Source: a virus. Taken from it: a DNA stretch of 25,755 nucleotides. The translations under genes were made by a program, and so were the position numbers. The notes below the pieces were generated by a model. It did no database searches, was not told the origin of the DNA, and was given only the letters and a program-made list of their open reading frames with translations. The stretch lies in the IMG/VR virus record IMGVR_UViG_3300017969_005422, positions 1-25,755 of that record; one strand, given 5' to 3'. Positions 12,292-25,149 of this stretch are shown piece by piece (position 1 is the stretch's first letter; every line of letters begins with the position of its first letter).

Positions 12292-12732
12292 ATGAAAAAT
12301 AATAACGACAATACAAATATGTACATGAATGGAAGATACACTTCACTTGCTGAAAAAAATCCATATTTTAATTTTAATTATACAAGTAGTGAACCAAACT
12401 TATATATTCCTGAAATAAGTGAAGAAGATACTTCACGTGGGTATATTGACAGATACTTTGTTAAGCAAATTACTTCTGCTAATTTTCCTATATACGAAGT
12501 AGATGTAGACCAGTATGAAACTTTCAAGGAAAATCCATTTTATGATACACTTGAAATAAAATGGAGAATTTCAGATCAAAAATATAACTTTACCGAATCA
12601 GATAATTCTTACAATAGACCTATGTCCGTTGCTGAATATAATAGCAACCAAATAAATTTTGCCGAAAACAAACTGGTTGGTATGGTGAATAAATTAAAAA
12701 ATCCACTTGAGTTTTATAAAAAAATATTGTAA
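12292..12732 (+). CDS. Small baseplate-associated protein of unknown function
   Basis: 146 residues with no signal peptide or membrane segment. It is Asn/Tyr-rich at the start (NNNDNTNMYMNG). A central block RYFVKQITSANFPIYEVD leads to a short beta-like stretch (FYDTLEIKWRIS) and the end is helical (LVGMVNKLKNPLEFYKK). The gene starts one base after the hub-like stop, with no Shine-Dalgarno of its own, so translation is probably coupled to the hub gene. Position at the end of a tightly packed tail run suggests a virion or tail-assembly role, which is inference from context only. I do not recognise the family. Confidence 0.6.
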   Translation: MKNNNDNTNMYMNGRYTSLAEKNPYFNFNYTSSEPNLYIPEISEEDTSRGYIDRYFVKQITSANFPIYEVDVDQYETFKENPFYDTLEIKWRISDQKYNFTESDNSYNRPMSVAEYNSNQINFAENKLVGMVNKLKNPLEFYKKIL

Positions 12733-12744
12733 TATAAAAACTCT

Positions 12745-14043
12745 ATGCAATTTATAGAAACTACGTCAGAGGCAAGGTCACTACTAGAAAAATTACAATC
12801 CAGTCAAAGTGTAATTAATTTTTACAACCAATGGTCTGACCAACATTCCGCAAACAATCAATTATGTGCATTGCTTGTAAATGTAGATTCTGAAAATTAT
12901 GTAATTTCATTTGGTCATCCTGATGTAAAACCAATGCCAATTCAGTATTTAAAACTTTTATTCGAGACTGATGGCAAAAAAATAATATTTGATAGAAAAA
13001 ATATAAAATACTTTGTATCAAATATTAAGAATGCGGTAGATTACAAAGTGTGTTCTTACTTCAAAACAAAAGAAGAAATTTCTGAGAATTTTGATTTGAA
13101 AAGATCAAATGACATGAGATCTATTCCTATAATGAATATACTTAAACATTTTAAGAATTTAGTATCAACACTCAACTACGATTTAATTCTAGGTGACGTA
13201 GAAACTGATTTATATGAATTAGAATTTTCTGATGCATTGTACAATGTTGAAAAAAACGGAATGTTTGTGGAAAATTTTACTTTGGGAAGTCAACATTTAG
13301 TAAATGATAAAAATTTAGTTTATGGTCAATATAATATGCTAACTCCAACGGGTAGACCGAGTAATAGATTTGGTAACATAAATTTCGCAGCTTTAAATAA
13401 AAAAACTAATGAACGAGATTGTTTTGTTTCAAGATTTTCAGATGGACTACTTGTGATGGTAGATTATGAAAGTTACCATCTAAGATTGTTGGGAAATTAT
13501 TTAAATTATGAGTTACCAAATACATCTTTACATGAGTATCTAGGGAAATTATACCATGGTAAACAAGAATTAACAGAAGATGAATATGAGTTATCAAAAA
13601 AAATTACATTTAACTTAATATACGGAGGTATATCCGATGATGTTAAAAACAATGTTCCATTCATGAATGAAATATCAAAATATGTAGATAAAGTTTGGAA
13701 CTTTTATACTAACAATAAATATGTAAAGACATGGTTCTATAAAAGAAAAATATTACCTAAGTTCTTTGGAGAAAAAGTTAATTCATATAAGATTTTTAAC
13801 TATCTACTCCAGTCGGCCGAAACTGAACAAAATTGTAATGTATTATTAAAAATAAATAATTTTCTAAAATCTAAAAAAACAAAATTAGTTTTATACACAT
13901 ACGATGCATTTTTATTTGATATACCGGGTGACGAGTTTTCATTGATAAAAGAAATAAAACCAATCATAACTTCTAATGATTCATATCCAATTAGAATTTA
14001 TTATGGAAGAAGTTATGGAAGTATGAAAGAAATGAAACTTTGA
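12745..14043 (+). CDS. Miniature family A (PolA-like) DNA polymerase homologue
   Basis: 432 residues against about 605 for a Klenow-type polymerase. Family A landmarks occur in order: TPTGRPS (200-206; TATGRLS in E. coli Pol I), motif A VDYESYHLR (239-247) with catalytic Asp240, motif B SKKITFNLIYGG (284-295) with Lys285, Phe289 and Tyr293 at the positions of Lys758, Phe762 and Tyr766, then LLQSAETEQ and motif C LYTYDAFLFD (383-392) with Asp387. Several residues differ: the steric-gate Glu710 position is His245, the Arg754 position is Tyr281, and the motif C triplet HDE is YDA. The first ~120 residues look like a worn 3'-5' exonuclease domain without its Asp/Glu ligands. Only about 24 residues separate the EKNGMFVE block from TPTGR, where Pol I has a thumb of roughly 120. 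Very AT-rich. It starts 12 bases after the tail-module gene. Both metal-binding aspartates remain, so it may be active, but that is uncertain. Confidence 0.75.
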   Translation: MQFIETTSEARSLLEKLQSSQSVINFYNQWSDQHSANNQLCALLVNVDSENYVISFGHPDVKPMPIQYLKLLFETDGKKIIFDRKNIKYFVSNIKNAVDYKVCSYFKTKEEISENFDLKRSNDMRSIPIMNILKHFKNLVSTLNYDLILGDVETDLYELEFSDALYNVEKNGMFVENFTLGSQHLVNDKNLVYGQYNMLTPTGRPSNRFGNINFAALNKKTNERDCFVSRFSDGLLVMVDYESYHLRLLGNYLNYELPNTSLHEYLGKLYHGKQELTEDEYELSKKITFNLIYGGISDDVKNNVPFMNEISKYVDKVWNFYTNNKYVKTWFYKRKILPKFFGEKVNSYKIFNYLLQSAETEQNCNVLLKINNFLKSKKTKLVLYTYDAFLFDIPGDEFSLIKEIKPIITSNDSYPIRIYYGRSYGSMKEMKL

Positions 14044-14080: not shown

Positions 14081-14476
14081 ATGAAAACAAAACTGCTTTG
14101 TACATTTACCGATATTCATAGTTATGATATTGAGGTTGAAAATATTAAAAAATTTTACGATATTGTATATGATAAAATTTATATACTTCAAGATATAGAC
14201 AATTTAAATAGTTTATTGTTGACTTACAACATAGATGCAGATAAATTTGAATCTAATAATTTTTATTTAAATACAATTAGTATGCATAGAAAAAAAGATT
14301 CAAATACATTATATACAATTAATTCATTGAACGCATTAATAAAAAGTTTAAACAACGGCATACTTGATTTTAATTTAAAAATAAATTGGAATGACTATAA
14401 GAATACGGTTTTATTAGTGGACGGAAATTCGTATCGCGAAATAAAAACAAAATTATTTAAAATTCTGAAAAATTAG
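14081..14476 (+). CDS. Unknown 131-residue protein
   Basis: I do not recognise this protein. It is Asn/Ile/Lys/Tyr-rich and has no cysteine motif beyond a single Cys near the start, no signal peptide and no membrane helix. Predicted secondary structure by eye is an opening strand (KTKLLCTFTDIHSYDIEV), helices in the middle, and a closing strand-plus-helix (NTVLLVDGNSYREIKTKLFK). The gene is real-looking because it has a good ribosome site, AAAAGG at 14068-14073, 7 bases before the ATG, and fills the gap between the polymerase-like gene and PrkA. Its extreme AT content matches the polymerase-like gene upstream and not the PrkA operon downstream, so it may belong with the polymerase. Confidence 0.6.
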   Translation: MKTKLLCTFTDIHSYDIEVENIKKFYDIVYDKIYILQDIDNLNSLLLTYNIDADKFESNNFYLNTISMHRKKDSNTLYTINSLNALIKSLNNGILDFNLKINWNDYKNTVLLVDGNSYREIKTKLFKILKN

Positions 14477-14512: not shown

Positions 14513-16609
14513 ATGGAAAATAAAAAGACACGAACAAAAAAAGAAAAAAATACATCTCTTGAATCTTTGATAAAAGTAAACGATGAAGAATCAATAAATG
14601 AATACAAGGCATTAAATTGGTCTGGAACTTTTTGGGATTACTTGGCAATGGTTGAAGATAATCCAAAATTGGCAAGAAATTCATATCAGAGATTATACGA
14701 TATGGTTATTTCCCATGGAACTCGTGAGTTTAAATATTGTAAAAGGCAATATGTAAAATATAAGTTTTTTGAAGGTCTTGGTGATATTTCAATTTATGGT
14801 TTAGAAGAAAATTTGATGGAATTCATGGACATCCTTAAAAGTGCAAGTCGTCATTATGGTCCTGAACGTCGTGTTATTCTTTTACATGGTCCTGTGGGTA
14901 GTAGTAAATCTACAATTGTAACTGCACTTAAAAAAGGATTAGAAGAATATACAAAAACAGAAGAAGGTGCATTATATTCATTTAGTTGGAAGGTTTCAGA
15001 TAAAGATGGAAATGAAGTTCTTGTAAATTGTCCAATGAACGAAGAACCTCTAAAATTATTACCAGATAATGTTCGTTTAGAAATTGTAAACAAATTAAAC
15101 GACTCATTATCAACCGATGAGTACCGTTTAAAATTAGATGGTGCATTGAATCCTGTAAATGAGTTTTATTACAATCAATTGATGGAATTGCACGGGGGTG
15201 ATTATCGTAAAGTTCTTGACCATGTTGTGGTTAGAAGAGTTGTTTTGTCCGAAAAAAATCGTGTCGGGATCGGAACATTTCAACCAAAAGACGAAAAGTC
15301 ACAAGATGCAACCGAATTAACGGGAGATATCAACTACCGCAAATTAGCAGAATATGGAAGTGAAAGTGACCCCCGTGCATTTGATTTTGATGGAGAATTT
15401 TTGGTATCAAACCGAGGTCTAATTGAATTCCAAGAAATTCTTAAACTTCAGACCGAGTTCTTGTATGATCTATTAGGTGCAACCCAAGAGCATCGTGTTA
15501 AACCACGACGATTTAACCAAGTACCTATCGATGAAGTTATTCTTGGTCACACAAATAATGCCGAGTTTGAAAAGTTAACCAACAATAAATTTATGGAAGC
15601 ACTTCGTGATAGAACTATTAAAATTGATATTCCGTATCTCTTGAAGATTTCAGAAGAAAAGAAAATTTATGATCACTTCTATAATAAGAGCACCGTTAAC
15701 AAGCATATTGCTCCACATACAACATATTTGGCTGCATTGTTTGCAGTTGTAAGTCGTTTAGAAGAAAGTTCAAAGCAGGATATGAGCATCATTCAAAAAG
15801 CAAAACTTTACAATGGTCAAAGTGTACATGGTTTCACAGACGAACACGTAAAGGAAATGCAAGAAGAGGCTCCAAAAGAAGGATTATATGGTGGAGTATC
15901 TGCTCGTTTTATTCAGAATCAATTTTCTAATGCGATTGTAAATCCAAGAATGGGTGCAAAGAGTTTAAATCCATTTATGCTTTTCGCACAAATTCGTGAA
16001 GGACTTAAAAGTTATAGTGGATTTCAAAGTGAAGACAACAAAAAGATTATGTTTGAACGTCTTGAACTTGTAGAAAAGGAATATGACAGAATTGTGAAAC
16101 GTGAAGTACAACAAGCACTTAGTAGTAGTGAAGAAGCAATCAAAGCACTTTGCACAAACTACATTGATAATATCGTTGCTTATATTCAAGATGAAAAAGT
16201 TACAAATCCTGTAACTGGAAAAGAAGAAACTGCAAACGAGCAACTTATGCGTAGCATCGAAGAAAAAATTGGTATTTCCAATGGTATGAAAGATGATTTC
16301 CGCAGAGAAATTATGAACTATATGGGTGGACTTGCCGCCAAGGGTAAAGAATTCAAGTATGACTCAAACGAGCAACTTTACAAAGCACTTGAAAAGAAGT
16401 TGTTTGAAGATACTAAAGATAGCATCAAGTTGTCTGCTCTTGCACAAGATACTGCAACCGTAGTTGATAAAGAACTTCTTGAAAAGATTGACGCACTCAA
16501 GCAACGTCTTATTACATCATTTGGTTATGATGAAGATAGTGCTTCTGATGTTCTTACATATGTAGGTAGTATTTTCGCAAGAGGTGATGCAGACGAAGAC
16601 GAAGATTAA
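14513..16609 (+). CDS. prkA: PrkA family AAA+ serine protein kinase/protease
   Basis: 698 residues; bacterial PrkA/YeaG proteins are about 630-645. The Walker A loop GPVGSSKST (126-134) is the characteristic PrkA form. The AAA+ part holds further family blocks such as HGGDYRKVLDHVVVRRVVLS, the pre-sensor stretch PIDEVILGHTNNAEF, and YGGVSARFIQNQFSNA with the sensor-2-type Arg. The C-terminal PrkA domain is also present (NYIDNIVAYI, DEKVTNPVTGKE, LMRSIEEKIGIS, DDFRREIMNYM). The N-terminus adds a Lys-rich leader and the end is acidic (GDADEDED). PrkA was described as a serine protein kinase and in Bacillus also as an AAA+ protease; in enterobacteria it works with YeaH and YcgB under stress and starvation. 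Ribosome site AAGGT at 14501-14505. First of four close genes. An intact Walker A and full length suggest a working protein; why a phage carries it is not known. Confidence 0.93.
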   Translation: MENKKTRTKKEKNTSLESLIKVNDEESINEYKALNWSGTFWDYLAMVEDNPKLARNSYQRLYDMVISHGTREFKYCKRQYVKYKFFEGLGDISIYGLEENLMEFMDILKSASRHYGPERRVILLHGPVGSSKSTIVTALKKGLEEYTKTEEGALYSFSWKVSDKDGNEVLVNCPMNEEPLKLLPDNVRLEIVNKLNDSLSTDEYRLKLDGALNPVNEFYYNQLMELHGGDYRKVLDHVVVRRVVLSEKNRVGIGTFQPKDEKSQDATELTGDINYRKLAEYGSESDPRAFDFDGEFLVSNRGLIEFQEILKLQTEFLYDLLGATQEHRVKPRRFNQVPIDEVILGHTNNAEFEKLTNNKFMEALRDRTIKIDIPYLLKISEEKKIYDHFYNKSTVNKHIAPHTTYLAALFAVVSRLEESSKQDMSIIQKAKLYNGQSVHGFTDEHVKEMQEEAPKEGLYGGVSARFIQNQFSNAIVNPRMGAKSLNPFMLFAQIREGLKSYSGFQSEDNKKIMFERLELVEKEYDRIVKREVQQALSSSEEAIKALCTNYIDNIVAYIQDEKVTNPVTGKEETANEQLMRSIEEKIGISNGMKDDFRREIMNYMGGLAAKGKEFKYDSNEQLYKALEKKLFEDTKDSIKLSALAQDTATVVDKELLEKIDALKQRLITSFGYDEDSASDVLTYVGSIFARGDADEDED

Positions 16610-16629
16610 TAGTCAACGGATACATCATT

Positions 16630-17781
16630 ATGCCATCTCGTAGAGTTAGGGAAGACCACCGTGAATATAGGGATATCGTCAAAGGTAATGTTGACGAAAA
16701 ACTTAAAAAGCATATTAAGGGTGGACAACGAATCACTCGCAGAGGAAAAGACTTTGTAGTAGTACGAGTTCCTCATGTTGAGTTACCAAGTTTTCGTTAC
16801 GGTGCTCCTTCTGATGGAGGTGGTATAGGTAATGGAGAAGCATCCGTGGGTGATGAAGTTGGAGAAGGACCACAACAACAAGGTCAAGGTGGACAACCTG
16901 GTGAAGGTGGTGAGGGAGAAGGTGAAGGTCACGAAATTGATGTTGGAATTAGCATGGATGCTTATTTTGATATGATAGGTGAAGAACTTCAACTTCCTAA
17001 TCTACTTCCAAAAGAAAATGGTGAAATGGTAAAAGAAAAAATCAAATGGAACCGTATTGCTAAAGTTGGAAACAATTCACTTCTTCACAAACGAAAAACA
17101 TTAAAGAACGCATTCAAACGATTAATTTCATCTGGTGATTACAACGAAGAAGATTTATCTAATTTTTATCCAATTAAAGAAGATAAAGAATTTCGCAGTT
17201 GGAGTTCCGTTGAAATGCCTGATACCAATGCGGCTATATTCTTTGTATCCGATATTTCTGCGAGTATGGATGATGAAAAACGTGCATTAATTCGTGAGTT
17301 GTGTTGGTATCTTGATAATTGGGTACAACGATTTTATCAAGAAACACAAGTAAAATATATAGTTCACGATCACCATGCACAAGAAGTAGATCAAGAAAAG
17401 TTCTACAAATATAAAAGTGGTGGTGGAACTCAAATTAGTAGTGCTTTTCATTTAGTTAATGATATAATTGAAAAAGCATTTCCATTAAACGAATGGAATA
17501 TCTACGTATTCTATTTAAGTGATGGAGAAAATTTTGGTTCTGATAACGACTTGTGTGTGGAGTATTTAAAAACAATGCAAAACTATGCGAATTTAATCGG
17601 AATAACCGAAGTAAAAGCAGTTCGTAGTTGGGCAACATTTTTACCACATATTCAAACAAAGATTTCTTCTAAAGAATTGGATTCAAAAAAAATAGTTACT
17701 GCAACAATGAATGAACCGAGTGATGTATTCAAAACACTCAAAAAATTATTGACACCTGAAGAAGAGGAGGTACCGTTCTAA
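16630..17781 (+). CDS. yeaH: YeaH family (DUF444) vWA-like protein
   Basis: 383 residues; E. coli YeaH is 427. The N-terminal RRVREDHREYRDIVKGN and RITRRGKDFVVVRVPHVELP match the YeaH opening, followed by a Gly/Glu/Gln-rich linker (GQGGQPGEGGEGEGEG). The C-terminal half is a von Willebrand A-like domain with MIDAS-type residues: DISASM (Asp208, Ser210, Ser212), GGGTQ (Thr267) and YLSDGEN (Asp298). Such domains bind a divalent metal and a protein partner. In bacteria YeaH is encoded beside PrkA and SpoVR/YcgB and is thought to act with them; the biochemical role is not settled. It begins 20 bases after prkA with a GGA about 12 bases upstream as a weak ribosome site. The intact MIDAS residues indicate selection for function. 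Confidence 0.92.
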   Translation: MPSRRVREDHREYRDIVKGNVDEKLKKHIKGGQRITRRGKDFVVVRVPHVELPSFRYGAPSDGGGIGNGEASVGDEVGEGPQQQGQGGQPGEGGEGEGEGHEIDVGISMDAYFDMIGEELQLPNLLPKENGEMVKEKIKWNRIAKVGNNSLLHKRKTLKNAFKRLISSGDYNEEDLSNFYPIKEDKEFRSWSSVEMPDTNAAIFFVSDISASMDDEKRALIRELCWYLDNWVQRFYQETQVKYIVHDHHAQEVDQEKFYKYKSGGGTQISSAFHLVNDIIEKAFPLNEWNIYVFYLSDGENFGSDNDLCVEYLKTMQNYANLIGITEVKAVRSWATFLPHIQTKISSKELDSKKIVTATMNEPSDVFKTLKKLLTPEEEEVPF

Positions 17782-17784
17782 GTT

Positions 17785-19350
17785 ATGGGAATTGCATGGG
17801 AAAGTCATAGTTTAAATTATGGTGTATGCCCTGAGTTGGCTGCACTAATACCAGATGTTTTAAAGGCGTGTTATGATAATGGTCTTGACCCTTATCCATT
17901 GTGCATAGAAGAGTTTGATGCAGATGAAATAGTTGAAATTGCGGCTTATGGTGGATTTCCTGTTCGTTATCCTCATTTTAATTTCGGACAACAATTTGAG
18001 CAACTTCATCATCAGTACCATTCAGGTATGGGTAAGATTTATGAAATGGTTGTTAATACTGATCCGACTTATATGTATCTGCAACGTAATAATCCTATTG
18101 TTGATAATTTAACTGTTGTTGCACACGCAACTGCACATAGTGATTTCTTTAAAAACAATATTATGTTCAAGCACACGAATCGTAACATGATGAATGTTAT
18201 GGCAAATCATAGTGATAAAATTCGTATGTATATGGATCGTTTTGGTCGTAAAAAAGTAAAAGACTTTTTGAATGCCGCTCTTGCTATTGACGATTTAATT
18301 GATCCATCATTATGTTATCGTGAAAGTAGTTTGAAGAAAGCAACAAAGTTTAACTTTGAAGACCGTCAACCACGTGAACATGTAACTAGAATTGACACTA
18401 AAGAATATATGGAGAAGTATGTAAATCCATCTCATTATATTGAAAAGCAACGTAGAGATCGTGCTGAACGAACAAAATTAGCAGAAAGTAAATACCCACT
18501 TCAACCAGAACGTGATATTATGCTATTCATAATCAATCATTGTCGTTTAGAACCATGGCAACAAAATATTCTAAGTATGATTCGTGATGAATCAATTTAT
18601 TATCAACCACAAGGTATGACAAAAGTTCTTAACGAGGGTTGGGCAAGTTATTGGGATTCTTATATTATGGCAACTTGCAATTTTGCAGGAGATGATGGAA
18701 TATTTGCATATGCCAAACATCATGCGGGAGTTCTTGGTGGTAAATATAACATGAATAATCCATATAAACTTGGAAATACATTATTACGTGACATTGAAGA
18801 CCGTTGGAACAAAGGAAAATTTGGTAAAGAATATGAAAATTGTGACAACGGAGATGAAAAAAGATATTGGAATAAAAATTTGAATTTAGGTCGTGATAAA
18901 ATTTATGAAGTTCGTGAAAACTATAATGATGTAACTTTTTTAAATGAGTTTTTTACCAAAGATTTTTGCGAGAAGTATGAGTATTTTGAATATGCACTTG
19001 ATAAGTCAACCAACAAATATGTTGTAGTTAGCAAAGATTATAAACGTATTAAAAAGAAATTAATAGACAGACATATTAATATGGGTCGTCCTGTTATTTA
19101 TCTTGAAAATATGAAATATAAAAATACAGAGATTTTGCTAAGACATGATTTTGAAGGAAGACCACTTGATTTAAAATATGCAACGGGTACAATGGCATAT
19201 TTGCATGAAATTATTAAAAAACCAATAAACATTCTTACAAATGATGTCCTTGAAGAAGGTTATGGTGCAGAAAAAGAAACTGTTGAAGTAGAAGTGCGTT
19301 ATCGGTATAATAACGGTGAAATGAAAAGGTTTGAAGGTAGTAAAGTTTGA
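17785..19350 (+). CDS. spoVR: SpoVR/YcgB family protein
   Basis: 521 residues, close to E. coli YcgB (510). Family blocks are seen in order: a YGGFPVRYPHFNFGQQFE stretch near the N-terminus, VVAHATAHSDFFKNN, then LEPWQQNILSMIRDESIYY (from ~254) and NEGWASYWDSYIM (Asn283 to Met295). The C-terminal part ends with a sheet-like section and charged tail. SpoVR is needed for spore cortex formation in Bacillus; in non-sporulating bacteria it travels with PrkA and YeaH and its activity is unknown. A GAGGAGG sequence lies in the end of the YeaH gene, about 14 bases before the ATG, which is further than usual. The stop codon overlaps the TTG start of the methyltransferase, so the four genes are probably one operon. 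Confidence 0.92.
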   Translation: MGIAWESHSLNYGVCPELAALIPDVLKACYDNGLDPYPLCIEEFDADEIVEIAAYGGFPVRYPHFNFGQQFEQLHHQYHSGMGKIYEMVVNTDPTYMYLQRNNPIVDNLTVVAHATAHSDFFKNNIMFKHTNRNMMNVMANHSDKIRMYMDRFGRKKVKDFLNAALAIDDLIDPSLCYRESSLKKATKFNFEDRQPREHVTRIDTKEYMEKYVNPSHYIEKQRRDRAERTKLAESKYPLQPERDIMLFIINHCRLEPWQQNILSMIRDESIYYQPQGMTKVLNEGWASYWDSYIMATCNFAGDDGIFAYAKHHAGVLGGKYNMNNPYKLGNTLLRDIEDRWNKGKFGKEYENCDNGDEKRYWNKNLNLGRDKIYEVRENYNDVTFLNEFFTKDFCEKYEYFEYALDKSTNKYVVVSKDYKRIKKKLIDRHINMGRPVIYLENMKYKNTEILLRHDFEGRPLDLKYATGTMAYLHEIIKKPINILTNDVLEEGYGAEKETVEVEVRYRYNNGEMKRFEGSKV

Positions 19351-20244: not shown

Positions 20245-20475
20245 ATGACAATTGAATCTAATAAATTAACCAATCGTGGTATACGATTGGAAGTGCTAAA
20301 ATATGCAAAAGAAATGGTGTGGGAAAGATGGCACATGGAAAACGAAGAATTGCAAAAATATGCAGATTTTGAAAAAACTTCACCTGAAATACTACCACTA
20401 CCAACTACACATGAAGTATTAGAAGTTGCTTCGGACTTTTACAATTTCGTTGAAAATGACGGAAAACTCTCTTAA
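20245..20475 (+). CDS. Small conserved-looking protein of unknown function, next to ssb
   Basis: 76 residues, soluble, mostly helical by eye: a basic opening (NKLTNRGIRLEVLKYAKEM), a Trp-containing stretch (VWERWHMENEEL) and an acidic C-terminal helix (HEVLEVASDFYNFVEND). There is no cysteine and no membrane segment. It has its own promoter and operator-like site directly upstream and is followed 85 bases later by the gp32-like gene with another promoter, so it is probably an early or middle replication-period protein. There is no clear Shine-Dalgarno; the leader is A-rich (AATAAATAAAAA). I do not recognise the family. Confidence 0.6.
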   Translation: MTIESNKLTNRGIRLEVLKYAKEMVWERWHMENEELQKYADFEKTSPEILPLPTTHEVLEVASDFYNFVENDGKLS

Positions 20476-20560: not shown

Positions 20561-21391
20561 ATGGCAATTGACCTAGATAAAATCAAAGCAAAACTAAATA
20601 ATTTGTCTCAGACAAATAATAGAAAAAACTATCAATGGAAACCTCAACCTGGTAAGCAACAGGTTCGTATTGTACCATATAAGCATCAACCCGATAATCC
20701 GTTTATTGAGTTGTATTTTCATTATGGAATCAATAATAGAACTTACTTATCACCAAAGTCATTTGGTCGTCCTGATCCAATCGTTGAGTTTGCTGAAAAG
20801 TTAACTCGTAGTGGTGATAAAGACGATTATCGCATGGGTCGTTCTCTTATGCCAAAGATGCGTACATTCGTACCTGTCATTGTTCGTGGAGAAGAAGCAG
20901 AAGGAGTTCGTTTTTGGGGTTTTGGTAAAGAAGTTTATCAAGAACTATTGAGTGTTATTGCAGATCCAGATTACGGAGACATCACAGATTCAACAAACGG
21001 AAGAGATATTACTATTGAATTTCTTTCCGCAGAAGAAGCAGGAAGATCATTTCCAAAAACTAACATTCGTGTTAAACCAAACACATCACCTATCTCCGAA
21101 AATAAGAATATCGTTGATGGTGTTGCCAACAATCAAGCAGAAATCACAGAGATTTATCAAGAACTTAGTTATGATGAATTAAAAGATGCACTTGAAAAGT
21201 GGGTAAGTGGTGAGTCTGAAGAAGATGCACCGCCAGCAGAATCTGTTGATTCTGAAAATGTTACGGTTGAAAAAACCGAAAGTGAAGTAAAGCAACCAAC
21301 CGTTGCTAGTGCAACTACTGAACAAAGCAAACCAAATGCAACTTCAACTGAAGATGTAGAGGCTGCTTTTGAAGAGTTGTTCAAGTCTTAA
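20561..21391 (+). CDS. gp32-like single-stranded DNA-binding protein without the zinc site
   Basis: 276 residues; T4 gp32 is 301. Residues ~25-140 carry the gp32-like core: WKPQPGKQQVRIVPYK, then PFIELYFHYGINNRTYLSP, DPIVEFAEKL and GVRFWGFGKEVYQELLS, where aromatic and basic residues would hold ssDNA. A short basic N-terminal arm (KIKAKLNNLSQTNNRKN) would serve cooperative binding. The C-terminal ~75 residues are acidic and disordered, ending in EDVEAAFEELFKS, the kind of tip that recruits replication partners. The protein has no cysteine at all, so the T4-type His/Cys zinc site is missing. It has its own promoter, a good ribosome site (AAGGA) and a strong hairpin just after its stop. In the cell it should coat replication-fork and recombination ssDNA and work with the recombinase and helicase downstream. 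Confidence 0.83.
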   Translation: MAIDLDKIKAKLNNLSQTNNRKNYQWKPQPGKQQVRIVPYKHQPDNPFIELYFHYGINNRTYLSPKSFGRPDPIVEFAEKLTRSGDKDDYRMGRSLMPKMRTFVPVIVRGEEAEGVRFWGFGKEVYQELLSVIADPDYGDITDSTNGRDITIEFLSAEEAGRSFPKTNIRVKPNTSPISENKNIVDGVANNQAEITEIYQELSYDELKDALEKWVSGESEEDAPPAESVDSENVTVEKTESEVKQPTVASATTEQSKPNATSTEDVEAAFEELFKS

Positions 21392-21446: not shown

Positions 21447-22604
21447 ATGGCAAGAAAAAAAGAAGATAAAACAAAATCAGAAGATTTAGCATCTGTACTT
21501 GCAGAAAGTCTAAACTCTGCGTATAAGGATGAAGGTAAAGTAGCATTCTTTTTAAACGAAGGAGACGATCCTTCTTTAATTTCCGACTGGATTCCAACAG
21601 GTAGTAGTTTACTTGACTTGGCAATTTCAAATCGTCCGAATGGTGGAATTCCTGTGGGGCGAATTACCGAAGTAACTGGACTAGAACAAAGTGGTAAAAG
21701 TTTGTTGTGTGGTCACATTCTTGCGGAAACTCAAAAGAAAGGAGGTGTTGCAGTGTATATTGACACGGAAACAAGTGTCAGTATTGAATATTTAACTGCC
21801 ATTGGTGTTGATACAGCCAAGTTGTTGTATGTTCATGTAGATACCGTAGAAGACATCTTCGCAACGATAGATAATATCATCGCAACAATTCGCAAAAGTA
21901 ATAAGGACAGACTTGTTACTATTGTTACAGATAGTGTTGCGGCCGCATCTACTAAAGTAGAAATGTCAGCAGATTATAGCAAAGATGGATTCGCAACAAC
22001 CAAAGCAATTTTAATCAGTAAAGCAATGCGTAAGTTGACTTCAACAATTGGTCGTCAGCGAATCGCATTAGTATTCACTAATCAACTTCGTCAAAAGATG
22101 GGAGTTATGTTTGGTGATCCGTGGACAACAAGTGGTGGTAAAGCATTAGCATTCCACGCAAGTGTTCGTCTTCGTTTAAAGAATCTTGGACAAATTAAAC
22201 AAGGTTCTACAACTGATGTAATTGGAAATAAATGCGAAGCAACAATCGTTAAGAATCGTATGGGTCCTCCTCAAAGAAAGGCATCTTTTGAAATTTATTT
22301 CAATCGTGGTATTGATGATTTAGGAAGTTGGATCACCACACTTAAAACACATAAAGTATTTAAGCAAGGTGGTGCATACTACACTTATGTTGATTCTAAA
22401 GAAAATGAACACAAGTTTATGGCAAAAGAATTTCCAACTTTGTTAGCAGAAAATCCTGAACTAAAAGAAGAGTTATATACTCAAATTTGTGACAAAGTTG
22501 TTATGCAGTATGAATCTGCTAATAGTGTCATTGATGAAGATGTTGAATTTGAAGATAACGATACAATTGCTGAACAAGAGTTAGCATCCGTGTCAAATGA
22601 GTAA
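21447..22604 (+). CDS. uvsX: UvsX/RecA-like recombinase
   Basis: 385 residues; T4 UvsX is 391. Walker A is GLEQSGKS (78-85). VYIDTETS carries the catalytic Glu (Glu108) in the position of RecA Glu96. LVTIVTDSVAA is Walker B, and TNQLRQKMGVMFGDPWTTSGGKAL contains the end of the Walker/L2 region that binds ssDNA. An acidic C-terminal tail follows. The enzyme forms filaments on ssDNA and carries out strand invasion for repair and recombination-dependent replication, working with the gp32-like SSB. No Shine-Dalgarno is seen before the ATG; the 17 bases after the hairpin are AU-rich. The stop overlaps the next gene's start by 8 bases. The UvsX or RecA name cannot be settled without an alignment; the family is clear. 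Confidence 0.9.
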   Translation: MARKKEDKTKSEDLASVLAESLNSAYKDEGKVAFFLNEGDDPSLISDWIPTGSSLLDLAISNRPNGGIPVGRITEVTGLEQSGKSLLCGHILAETQKKGGVAVYIDTETSVSIEYLTAIGVDTAKLLYVHVDTVEDIFATIDNIIATIRKSNKDRLVTIVTDSVAAASTKVEMSADYSKDGFATTKAILISKAMRKLTSTIGRQRIALVFTNQLRQKMGVMFGDPWTTSGGKALAFHASVRLRLKNLGQIKQGSTTDVIGNKCEATIVKNRMGPPQRKASFEIYFNRGIDDLGSWITTLKTHKVFKQGGAYYTYVDSKENEHKFMAKEFPTLLAENPELKEELYTQICDKVVMQYESANSVIDEDVEFEDNDTIAEQELASVSNE

Positions 22605-23673
22605 AAGTAAAATATTCAGTTTATTTGAAGAATTTTCAGAAGAACAAAAAGCAGAACTTGAAGTAGAACGAACTTTAAATTCTGATGCCCTTTTAGTAGA
22701 TGGAATGAATACTTTCATGCGTGTTTGGAGTATGTATCCAACCACAAATGAAAACGGAGATCATATTGGTGGTTACACCGGATTTCTGAAAAGCATTGGT
22801 CACGCAATTCGTTTGAGAAAACCAACACGTTGTATAATCATATTTGATGGTAAAGGTGGAAGTACACGAAGACGAAAAATATTTCCTGATTACAAAATGA
22901 AAAAGAATGTGCGATTTCGTGTGAATCGTGCGTTGAGTTTAGATATGGATCAAGGAGAAGAAGATAACTCAATGAAAAAACAAATTGTTAAACTCATTGA
23001 GTATCTTAATATGCTTCCTGTTACAACTTTATGTTTGGACAATGTTGAAGCAGACGATGTTATTGCATTACTTGCTCGTTCATACTTCAGTGGACTTGGT
23101 AAGAAGTGCACTATAATGAGTACCGACAAAGACTTTCTTCAACTTGTAGACGATGATGTAACGGTTTATAGTCCGACTAAACGAACCGTTTATACCCCCG
23201 AGAAAGTATTACACGAATATGGAATTCATCCGAGCAATTTTTTATTGTACAGAACAATAGACGGAGACCGTGGTGATAACATAGATGGAATGAAAGGTGT
23301 GGGTGAGAAAAAACTAAAAACTGCATTTCCTGAGTTTGCAAATGACAAAAAACTAAATGTAAATGATTTATTACAAATCTCAGAGAAAAAACAAAAAGAT
23401 ATGCCTTTGTATAAAAACTTTCTTAAAGAAGAAAATCAAAGTTTGCTGAAACGAAATTATGATTTGATGCAACTGACTGATTCTATTCTACCTGCAAGTA
23501 TGCAAACAAAAGTATTTGATCATGTTGATTCTCCTGTTACAACTCTTAATAAATTTGAGTTTAGTAAAAAGTTTGCAGAAGACCAATTATGGGCTGCGTT
23601 TCCTAACCATCACAACTGGTTGATGGAAACATGGACAATTCTGAATAACTATGCGATTTCTTCACAGTCGTAA
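22597..23673 (+). CDS. RNase H/FEN-type 5'-3' exonuclease
   Basis: 358 residues; T4 RNase H is 305. The metal-binding acidic residues of the family are present: LLVDGMN (Asp35), IIFDGKGG (Asp84), NVEADDV (Glu151, Asp153, Asp154), STDKDF (Asp177, Asp179) and DGDRGDNI (Asp224, Asp227). The last is followed by GMKGVGEKKL, the helix-hairpin-helix (H3TH) that grips DNA. A basic arch segment lies around 90-110 (RRRKIFPDYK). Such enzymes remove RNA primers and 5' flaps from lagging-strand fragments. It overlaps the recombinase gene by 8 bases and is probably co-translated. The N-terminal ~28 residues (EEFSEEQKAELEVE) are an acidic helix that could be a partner-binding extension, perhaps to the SSB; that is inference. 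Confidence 0.88.
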   Translation: MSKSKIFSLFEEFSEEQKAELEVERTLNSDALLVDGMNTFMRVWSMYPTTNENGDHIGGYTGFLKSIGHAIRLRKPTRCIIIFDGKGGSTRRRKIFPDYKMKKNVRFRVNRALSLDMDQGEEDNSMKKQIVKLIEYLNMLPVTTLCLDNVEADDVIALLARSYFSGLGKKCTIMSTDKDFLQLVDDDVTVYSPTKRTVYTPEKVLHEYGIHPSNFLLYRTIDGDRGDNIDGMKGVGEKKLKTAFPEFANDKKLNVNDLLQISEKKQKDMPLYKNFLKEENQSLLKRNYDLMQLTDSILPASMQTKVFDHVDSPVTTLNKFEFSKKFAEDQLWAAFPNHHNWLMETWTILNNYAISSQS

Positions 23674-23730: not shown

Positions 23731-25149
23731 ATGACGGAGACTATAAATAATAATGTAGATACCTTACAAAAGTTTGGGACTGCATTTCAAAGTAAAACTA
23801 TTCGTGCTTTAATTGACGATAAAAAGTTCTTGGAAAGAACGCATGACATCATTGAAACCGAATATTGGGAAAGTGAATCAAACAAATGGATTGTAGAAGA
23901 AATACTTAGTTATTACGACAAGTATAAACGAACAACTACTCTTGATGTTTTTAAAATCAGATGTGATGATATAGGAATTGATTCACTCAAGGCTGCAGTT
24001 ATTGACCAACTTAGAAGTATTTTTACTCAAATAGAAACACACGATGCTGAGTTTGTTAAAAATGAGTTTTTGAACTTTTGTAAAAATCAAAAACTTAAAA
24101 ATGCAATTATGCAAAGTGTTGACTTTCTTAAAGGTGGTCAATACGATTCTATTAAAAGAATTGTTGATGATGCACTTAAAGCAGGAACAGAACGTGACAT
24201 TGGACATGATTATGCTCGTGATATTGAATTACGAATGTCAGAAACTGCACGTGATACAATCAACACAGGGTGGGAAGTAATTGATGATTTAACAAATGGT
24301 GGATTGGGACCTGGAGAACTTGGAGTTATTATTAGTAGTGCCGGTGGTGGTAAAAGTTGGTGTTTAGCATCACTTGGAAAGTCGGCAATGCAAAGTGGCA
24401 AGAATGTATTGCATTATACTTTAGAACTTAATGAGTGTTATGTAGGTCTTCGTTATGATAGTTGTTTTACTGGAGTTCCTTTCCAAGATATTATGGACTA
24501 CGAAGAAAAAGTTAAGAATGTAGTTTCAACTATCAAAGGTAAACTTCTTATTAAAGAATATCCAACAAAAAGTGTAGGAGTAAGTACAATTCTTGCACAT
24601 GCAAATTTAGCAAATACAATGGGGTATCCTGTTGATATGGTGGTAATTGATTATGCAGATATTTTGTCTCCGGGTAAAGTATCAAGTAATGCAAATACCT
24701 ACGTAGAACAAGGTGGTATTTATGAGGACTTACGAGGCCTTGCGGGCGAACTCGGAGTTCCAGTATGGACGGCATCTCAAGCAAGTCGTTCGTCATTAGA
24801 CGATAATATTATTGAAGCACAAAAAGTTGCGGATAGTTATCGTAAAATAATGACGGCAGACTTTGTAATGAGTTTGTCGAGAAAGGCAACTGACAAGGTT
24901 AGTAATACAGGAAGATTTCATGTTATCAAAAATCGTTTTGGGGCAGATGGCATGACTTTTCCAAGTAGAGTAGACACATCTTCGGGTGTTATTGAAATAT
25001 ATGATGAACAAAGCACAAAAGGTGCTGAAATAATGGTGGAAATGAATGATTCTGAGAATGGTGCAAAGAATCTATTGAAAACTAAGTATGATCAAATGAA
25101 TACTAATAAAAAATCATATAATAACGAAGATGTTGTTGATATTGGGTAA
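23731..25149 (+). CDS. gp41/DnaB-like replicative DNA helicase
   Basis: 472 residues; T4 gp41 is 475. The N-terminal ~160 residues are helical, as in the DnaB/gp41 primase-interaction half. The RecA-like motor begins at LTNGGLGPGELGVIIS, with Walker A SAGGGKSW (203-210; Lys208), a H1a-type Glu in YTLELNE, Walker B VVIDYADIL (Asp307), and sensor-type GVPVWTASQASR. NRFGADGMTFP near the end is the arginine-finger/closing region. It should form a hexamer that unwinds DNA at the fork. There is no Shine-Dalgarno upstream; the leader is short and AU-rich. The gene lies 57 bases after the 5' nuclease. Confidence 0.9.
   Translation: MTETINNNVDTLQKFGTAFQSKTIRALIDDKKFLERTHDIIETEYWESESNKWIVEEILSYYDKYKRTTTLDVFKIRCDDIGIDSLKAAVIDQLRSIFTQIETHDAEFVKNEFLNFCKNQKLKNAIMQSVDFLKGGQYDSIKRIVDDALKAGTERDIGHDYARDIELRMSETARDTINTGWEVIDDLTNGGLGPGELGVIISSAGGGKSWCLASLGKSAMQSGKNVLHYTLELNECYVGLRYDSCFTGVPFQDIMDYEEKVKNVVSTIKGKLLIKEYPTKSVGVSTILAHANLANTMGYPVDMVVIDYADILSPGKVSSNANTYVEQGGIYEDLRGLAGELGVPVWTASQASRSSLDDNIIEAQKVADSYRKIMTADFVMSLSRKATDKVSNTGRFHVIKNRFGADGMTFPSRVDTSSGVIEIYDEQSTKGAEIMVEMNDSENGAKNLLKTKYDQMNTNKKSYNNEDVVDIG

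Follow-up and report, generated by a model that had tools for sequence, protein, structure and literature searches.

What use does a phage have for a family A DNA polymerase of 432 residues that lacks a thumb? The question is raised by the window, a virus record of 25,755 bases (a 25.7-kb genome fragment), within which no replicase gene is visible. The polymerase reading frame is intact and starts with ATG. Its product matches Pfam DNA_pol_A (PF00476; 41.9 bits against a curated cut-off of 34.3, E 8.4e-11) and PHROG 17, a family of DNA polymerases. Family A membership is given by the Pfam score above the cut-off, by motifs A, B and C, by both metal aspartates (D240 in VDYESYHLR, D387 in YTYDAFLFD) and by the fold match; chance likeness to a polymerase is ruled out by the Pfam and fold matches. 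The reading frame is confirmed as a small DNA polymerase in which the thumb and the proofreading centre are lost and the catalytic centre is kept; judged by its relatives, it is the second polymerase of a large environmental phage. Features of the window are listed in Table 1.

Table 1. Features of the polymerase gene and its surroundings (positions in the window)
Feature	Position	Strand	Basis or remark
146-aa conserved gene upstream of divPolA1	12292..12732	+	in 151/156 loci; no family match
divPolA1, thumbless family A DNA polymerase	12745..14043	+	PF00476 over cut-off; AlphaFold2 model and fold match; 132 distinct homologues
Exonuclease-like domain without acidic ligands, residues about 1-168	12745..13248	+	model, Bst alignment; ligands mapped by hand
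Remnant of thumb stretch, residues 173-199	13261..13341	+	27 residues; model; alignment; 15-35 residues across homologues
Motif A, MVDYESYHLRLLG	13447..13485	+	D240 metal ligand; H245 at steric-gate position (E. coli Glu710)
Motif B (O helix), KKITFNLIYGG	13597..13629	+	K285, F289, Y293
Motif C, YTYDAFLFD	13894..13920	+	D387 metal ligand
131-aa protein, constant divPolA1 companion, candidate partner	14081..14476	+	co-occurrence; INPHARED; AlphaFold2 pLDDT 94.6
gp32-like single-strand DNA-binding protein (SSB)	20561..21391	+	PF08804, PHROG 1192
UvsX/RecA-like recombinase	21447..22604	+	PF00154, PHROG 97
5'-3' exonuclease (FEN), homologous to Pol I N-terminal domain	22597..23673	+	PF02739
DnaB-like replicative helicase	23731..25149	+	homology to annotated immuto and Mel-JY01 helicases

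The protein is homologous to gene 1 of Flavobacterium phage immuto (tblastn, E 2e-34), with 26% identity overall and 31% in the core, and the two fall into one alignment family. The divPolA1 group was described in 2024 from 14 phages around immuto, under the title 'DNA polymerase swapping in Caudoviricetes bacteriophages' (PMC11348598, Virol J 2024, 21:200). The accessible passages of that paper give as its traits a truncated thumb, an inactivated exonuclease and conserved palm residues; the genomes also hold a regular DNA polymerase of family A, B or C, and replication genes lie downstream. The window polymerase belongs to this published family. Homology to immuto, the truncated thumb, the dead exonuclease, the kept palm and the downstream replication genes are all found here, and a regular polymerase is seen in 16 of 16 large relatives, the window itself being a 25.7-kb fragment. 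The sequence-only reading had regarded alignment with a standard phage polymerase subfamily as fatal to its proposal. That objection holds in part, as a phage group of this kind is described in the passages cited above; the thumbless state itself stands.

Nothing essential separates the window protein from the divPolA1 of immuto; the window subgroup has a PrkA-DUF444-SpoVR cassette behind the gene. New here are the active-site signature, the 131-aa neighbour and the hundreds of contigs now counted in a family described from 14 phages; the accessible passages of PMC11348598 mention neither the 131-aa companion nor a fixed Glu710-to-His change. The divPolA2 of barbaviruses, considered here by its description in the same passages (PMC11348598), is likewise an additional PolA without a thumb, in company with a regular PolB. 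It carries an unrelated N-terminal globular domain in a variable neighbourhood, whereas the N-terminus of the window protein lies within the Bst alignment and its neighbourhood is conserved.

A thumbless, exonuclease-dead enzyme with both metal aspartates in place had been proposed from the sequence, and this is borne out by alignment, by the AlphaFold2 model and by 132 homologues. The model (63 sequences) has a mean pLDDT of 94.3 and a pTM of 0.92. On residues 301-876 of the Bst fragment, 407 of its 432 residues are aligned by VIA-align (Z 28.7, rmsd 3.7). A normal thumb supplied by another segment is ruled out by this Klenow-type comparison, at most 25 residues of the model being left unaligned to Bst. 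A profile built from 13 homologues matches the PDB Bst and Klenow polymerases from about residue 194 on; the global profile alignment to E. coli Pol I is reliable only downstream from TPTGR. EKNGMFVE (169-176) and TPTGR (200-204) lie where the earlier reading had placed them. The thumb stretch, from G172 to T200 (the T of T-x-T-G-R), has 27 residues, against 119 from G544 to T664 in E. coli Pol I. In the model it is a loop with a very short helix. The pair of long thumb helices is absent, and the protein lacks the roughly 100-residue thumb that precedes the palm in canonical Pol I. The same deletion is found throughout the family, with a stretch of 15-35 residues in all 132 distinct homologues. 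Loss of the thumb through a frameshift is ruled out, as the reading frame is intact and the homologues are all of similar size.

The N-terminal 168 residues are inside the Bst-fragment alignment, at its exonuclease-domain end, and the exonuclease fold is kept by superposition. Profile alignment of this domain to E. coli Pol I was uninformative; the ligands were mapped manually, by strand and helix order. By this hand mapping on the model, Klenow D355, E357, D424 and D501 appear to have no acidic counterpart in the window protein, and the active 3'-5' exonuclease of canonical Pol I would be missing. D99 is nearly invariant; its counterpart is the Asp in the E. coli Pol I 'FDT' element, outside the catalytic four. 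Palm, fingers, exonuclease-like fold and motifs A, B and C are shared with the Klenow and Bst polymerases; unlike these, the protein has no thumb, has lost its exonuclease ligands and carries the changes E710H, R754Y and HDE to YDA.

In the profile alignment, D240 corresponds to D705 of E. coli Pol I, D387 to D882, K285 to K758, F289 to F762, Q356 to Q849 and H263 to H734; R204, the equivalent of R668, is also kept. Replaced positions are E710 (H245), R754 (Y281), H881 (Y386) and E883 (A388). Residues D240, H245, K285, F289, R204, N207 and N213 are invariant in the 132 distinct homologues, Q356, Y386 and D387 are invariant in every homologue with sequence present there, and Y293 is kept in 131 of 132. 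Arg is found at the R754 position in none of the 132, its place being taken by Y, L, I or V; position 388 (E883 in Pol I) is A or S throughout. The family has a fixed signature: His for Glu710 at the steric gate, YD(A/S) for HDE, and no Arg754. All four replaced positions matter in Pol I, and their change throughout the family could point to another substrate or to low activity.

In E. coli Pol I the steric gate is Glu710 (PMC13228545). The His at this position, invariant in 132 sequences, might admit ribonucleotides or permit bypass of lesions or modified bases, in primer or translesion work; immuto makes a 7-deazaguanine-type DNA modification. Such a change in the choice of sugar or lesion is distinctly improbable. 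His may still gate, the equivalents of F762 and Y766 are kept, and 13 of 15 large genomes encode a DnaG-like primase, so that a primase role is not needed of divPolA1.

The family is large and stable. A scan of IMG/VR yielded 20 relatives, one with the immuto protein 312 matches and one with a profile at least 588; a single-sequence search of IMG/VR using the LR756508 protein found no relatives. The median dN/dS is about 0.07 over 133 pairs, with a maximum of 0.18. Residue conservation and low dN/dS mark the subfamily as stable and subject to purifying selection rather than as a gene in decay, and the thumbless, exonuclease-dead state kept in 132 homologues excludes a degraded copy or a frameshift. 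A host gene is disfavoured: among 84,980 genomes of cellular species there are 8 matches only, every one on a metagenome-assembled contig that may be stray phage. Strong selection thus still retains a family A polymerase without thumb and proofreading, as a second polymerase, in hundreds of large phages.

A non-catalytic derivative that scaffolds or regulates replication or late functions would agree with the loss of thumb and exonuclease, with the changes of R754, H881 and E883 in all homologues and with the position near baseplate genes. It is very unlikely, since a scaffold would not need the metal aspartates or the equivalents of K758, F762, Q849 and R668, all of which are invariant or nearly so. 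Lost polymerisation, allowed for by the sequence-only reading, is not supported, given that both aspartates and most dNTP-binding residues are (near-)invariant and purifying selection is strong.

Polymerases of families A, B and C were searched for in complete or large relatives, and those of families A and B in further relatives. Each of the 16 related contigs that reach 146 kb encodes another full-length polymerase. The immuto-like phages (W01, G014, G016, G017, G018) have a full-length family A enzyme of about 780 aa. In G001, G006-G013 and Microcystis phage Mel-JY01 the second polymerase is of family B, about 840 aa. Contig LR756508 (484 kb) has both PolB and PolC beside divPolA1. G012 and G013 have an identical divPolA1 match and may be one virus. 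Some shorter related fragments show no second polymerase, as expected of fragments, and the window is itself a fragment; the main replicase of its phage is predicted to be of family B, like that of L015 and L028, the large contigs most closely related to it. In LR756508.1 the PolB extends over two reading frames (260623-266900; 1022 and 625 aa), perhaps split or intein-interrupted. The presence of a full-length polymerase in all 16 large contigs marks the small one as accessory, and divPolA1 as sole replicase is ruled out for large relatives. Being kept beside either a family B or a full-length family A replicase, divPolA1 has a task independent of the replicase type. The sequence-only reading had suggested a non-processive accessory enzyme, perhaps in need of a partner; this gains support from the second polymerase in large relatives and from a near-constant neighbour gene.

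The common gene order is gp53-like baseplate protein, large structural protein, 146-aa protein, divPolA1 and 131-aa protein, followed by SSB, UvsX/RecA, 5'-3' exonuclease and DnaB. The genes for SSB, UvsX, FEN and DnaB lie downstream of divPolA1 in the window and in most relatives. The regular PolA of immuto is gene 71 and adjoins GroES/GroEL, an arrangement stated for the immuto group in the accessible passages of PMC11348598, whose authors infer a genome-replication role for divPolA1 from its conserved replication context. Consistent with that published interpretation, divPolA1 might act at the fork, for example on the lagging strand or in initiation from recombination intermediates, and the regular polymerase might have another task. 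Processivity would then be restored by the 131-aa protein, SSB or a clamp. The placement of divPolA1 in the replication block, with the regular polymerase in variable surroundings beside GroEL/GroES, agrees with a role at the fork. Such a role is nevertheless rather unlikely: divPolA1 is without thumb or proofreading, unlike replicases, and the regular polymerases are full length and occur in every large relative.

The preferred explanation, judged somewhat better than even, is that divPolA1 is an accessory, predicted active phage polymerase of low processivity for short gap filling. Without a thumb it would grip the primer-template weakly and add one or a few nucleotides per binding. Short gaps might be filled in lagging-strand maturation after action of the separate FEN nuclease, or in recombination intermediates. 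The enzyme would act together with FEN, SSB and recombinase, and the 131-aa protein or SSB might keep it on the DNA. The FEN domain is part of bacterial Pol I and is on a separate gene in the window phage; this would amount to the cellular Pol I pairing of FEN and polymerase divided between two genes. The adjacency of FEN, SSB and UvsX is weak evidence for gap filling, as it is the general arrangement of this phage clade.

The 131-aa gene is present in 142 of 143 divPolA1 loci with enough sequence. Conversely, divPolA1 is found in 35 of 35 loci that were detected by the 131-aa protein and have at least 6 kb upstream. In INPHARED the 131-aa protein occurs in the same six records as close divPolA1 homologues. 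Shared ancestry alone could yield this co-occurrence, but both genes are kept even with up to 6 kb between them. The 131-aa protein has a strongly conserved HRKK..NTLYTIN.LN signature and hundreds of relatives in IMG/VR. Pfam and PHROGs gave no convincing family for it. Its model has no match in PDB under E 0.001 (VIA Z at most 6.4) and one match in BFVD, a phage protein from the same family. Likeness to ferredoxin-like domains or to the polyomavirus origin-binding domain is at chance level and was rejected.

T7 DNA polymerase is a phage PolA that needs a partner protein, thioredoxin, to grip DNA. It has a thumb and active proofreading and serves as the replicase. A partner for grip is proposed for divPolA1 as well; unlike the T7 enzyme, divPolA1 has no thumb and no active proofreading and is not the replicase. 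A two-part polymerase, in which the 131-aa protein stands in for the missing thumb, is doubtful. If true, a family A polymerase would have its grip supplied externally and would be used beside any main replicase type in many environmental phages. With a constant partner gene, an altered steric gate and a cultured relative, immuto, the role of divPolA1 is directly testable.

Between the 131-aa gene and SSB, the window carries a cassette of PrkA kinase, DUF444/YeaH and SpoVR (14513-19350), a trio of bacterial stress and stationary phase. SpoVR and PrkA are also present in jumbo phage RsoM2USA (PMC8504454). No such cassette was found adjoining divPolA1 in immuto, Mel-JY01 or LR756508. All three genes together occur at 20 loci, every one belonging to the nearest relatives of the window. 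An N6/N4 DNA methyltransferase (PF01555; 19347-20162) follows, its TTG start overlapping the SpoVR stop. This methyltransferase and a 76-aa gene (20245-20475) both accompany the PrkA-SpoVR cassette.
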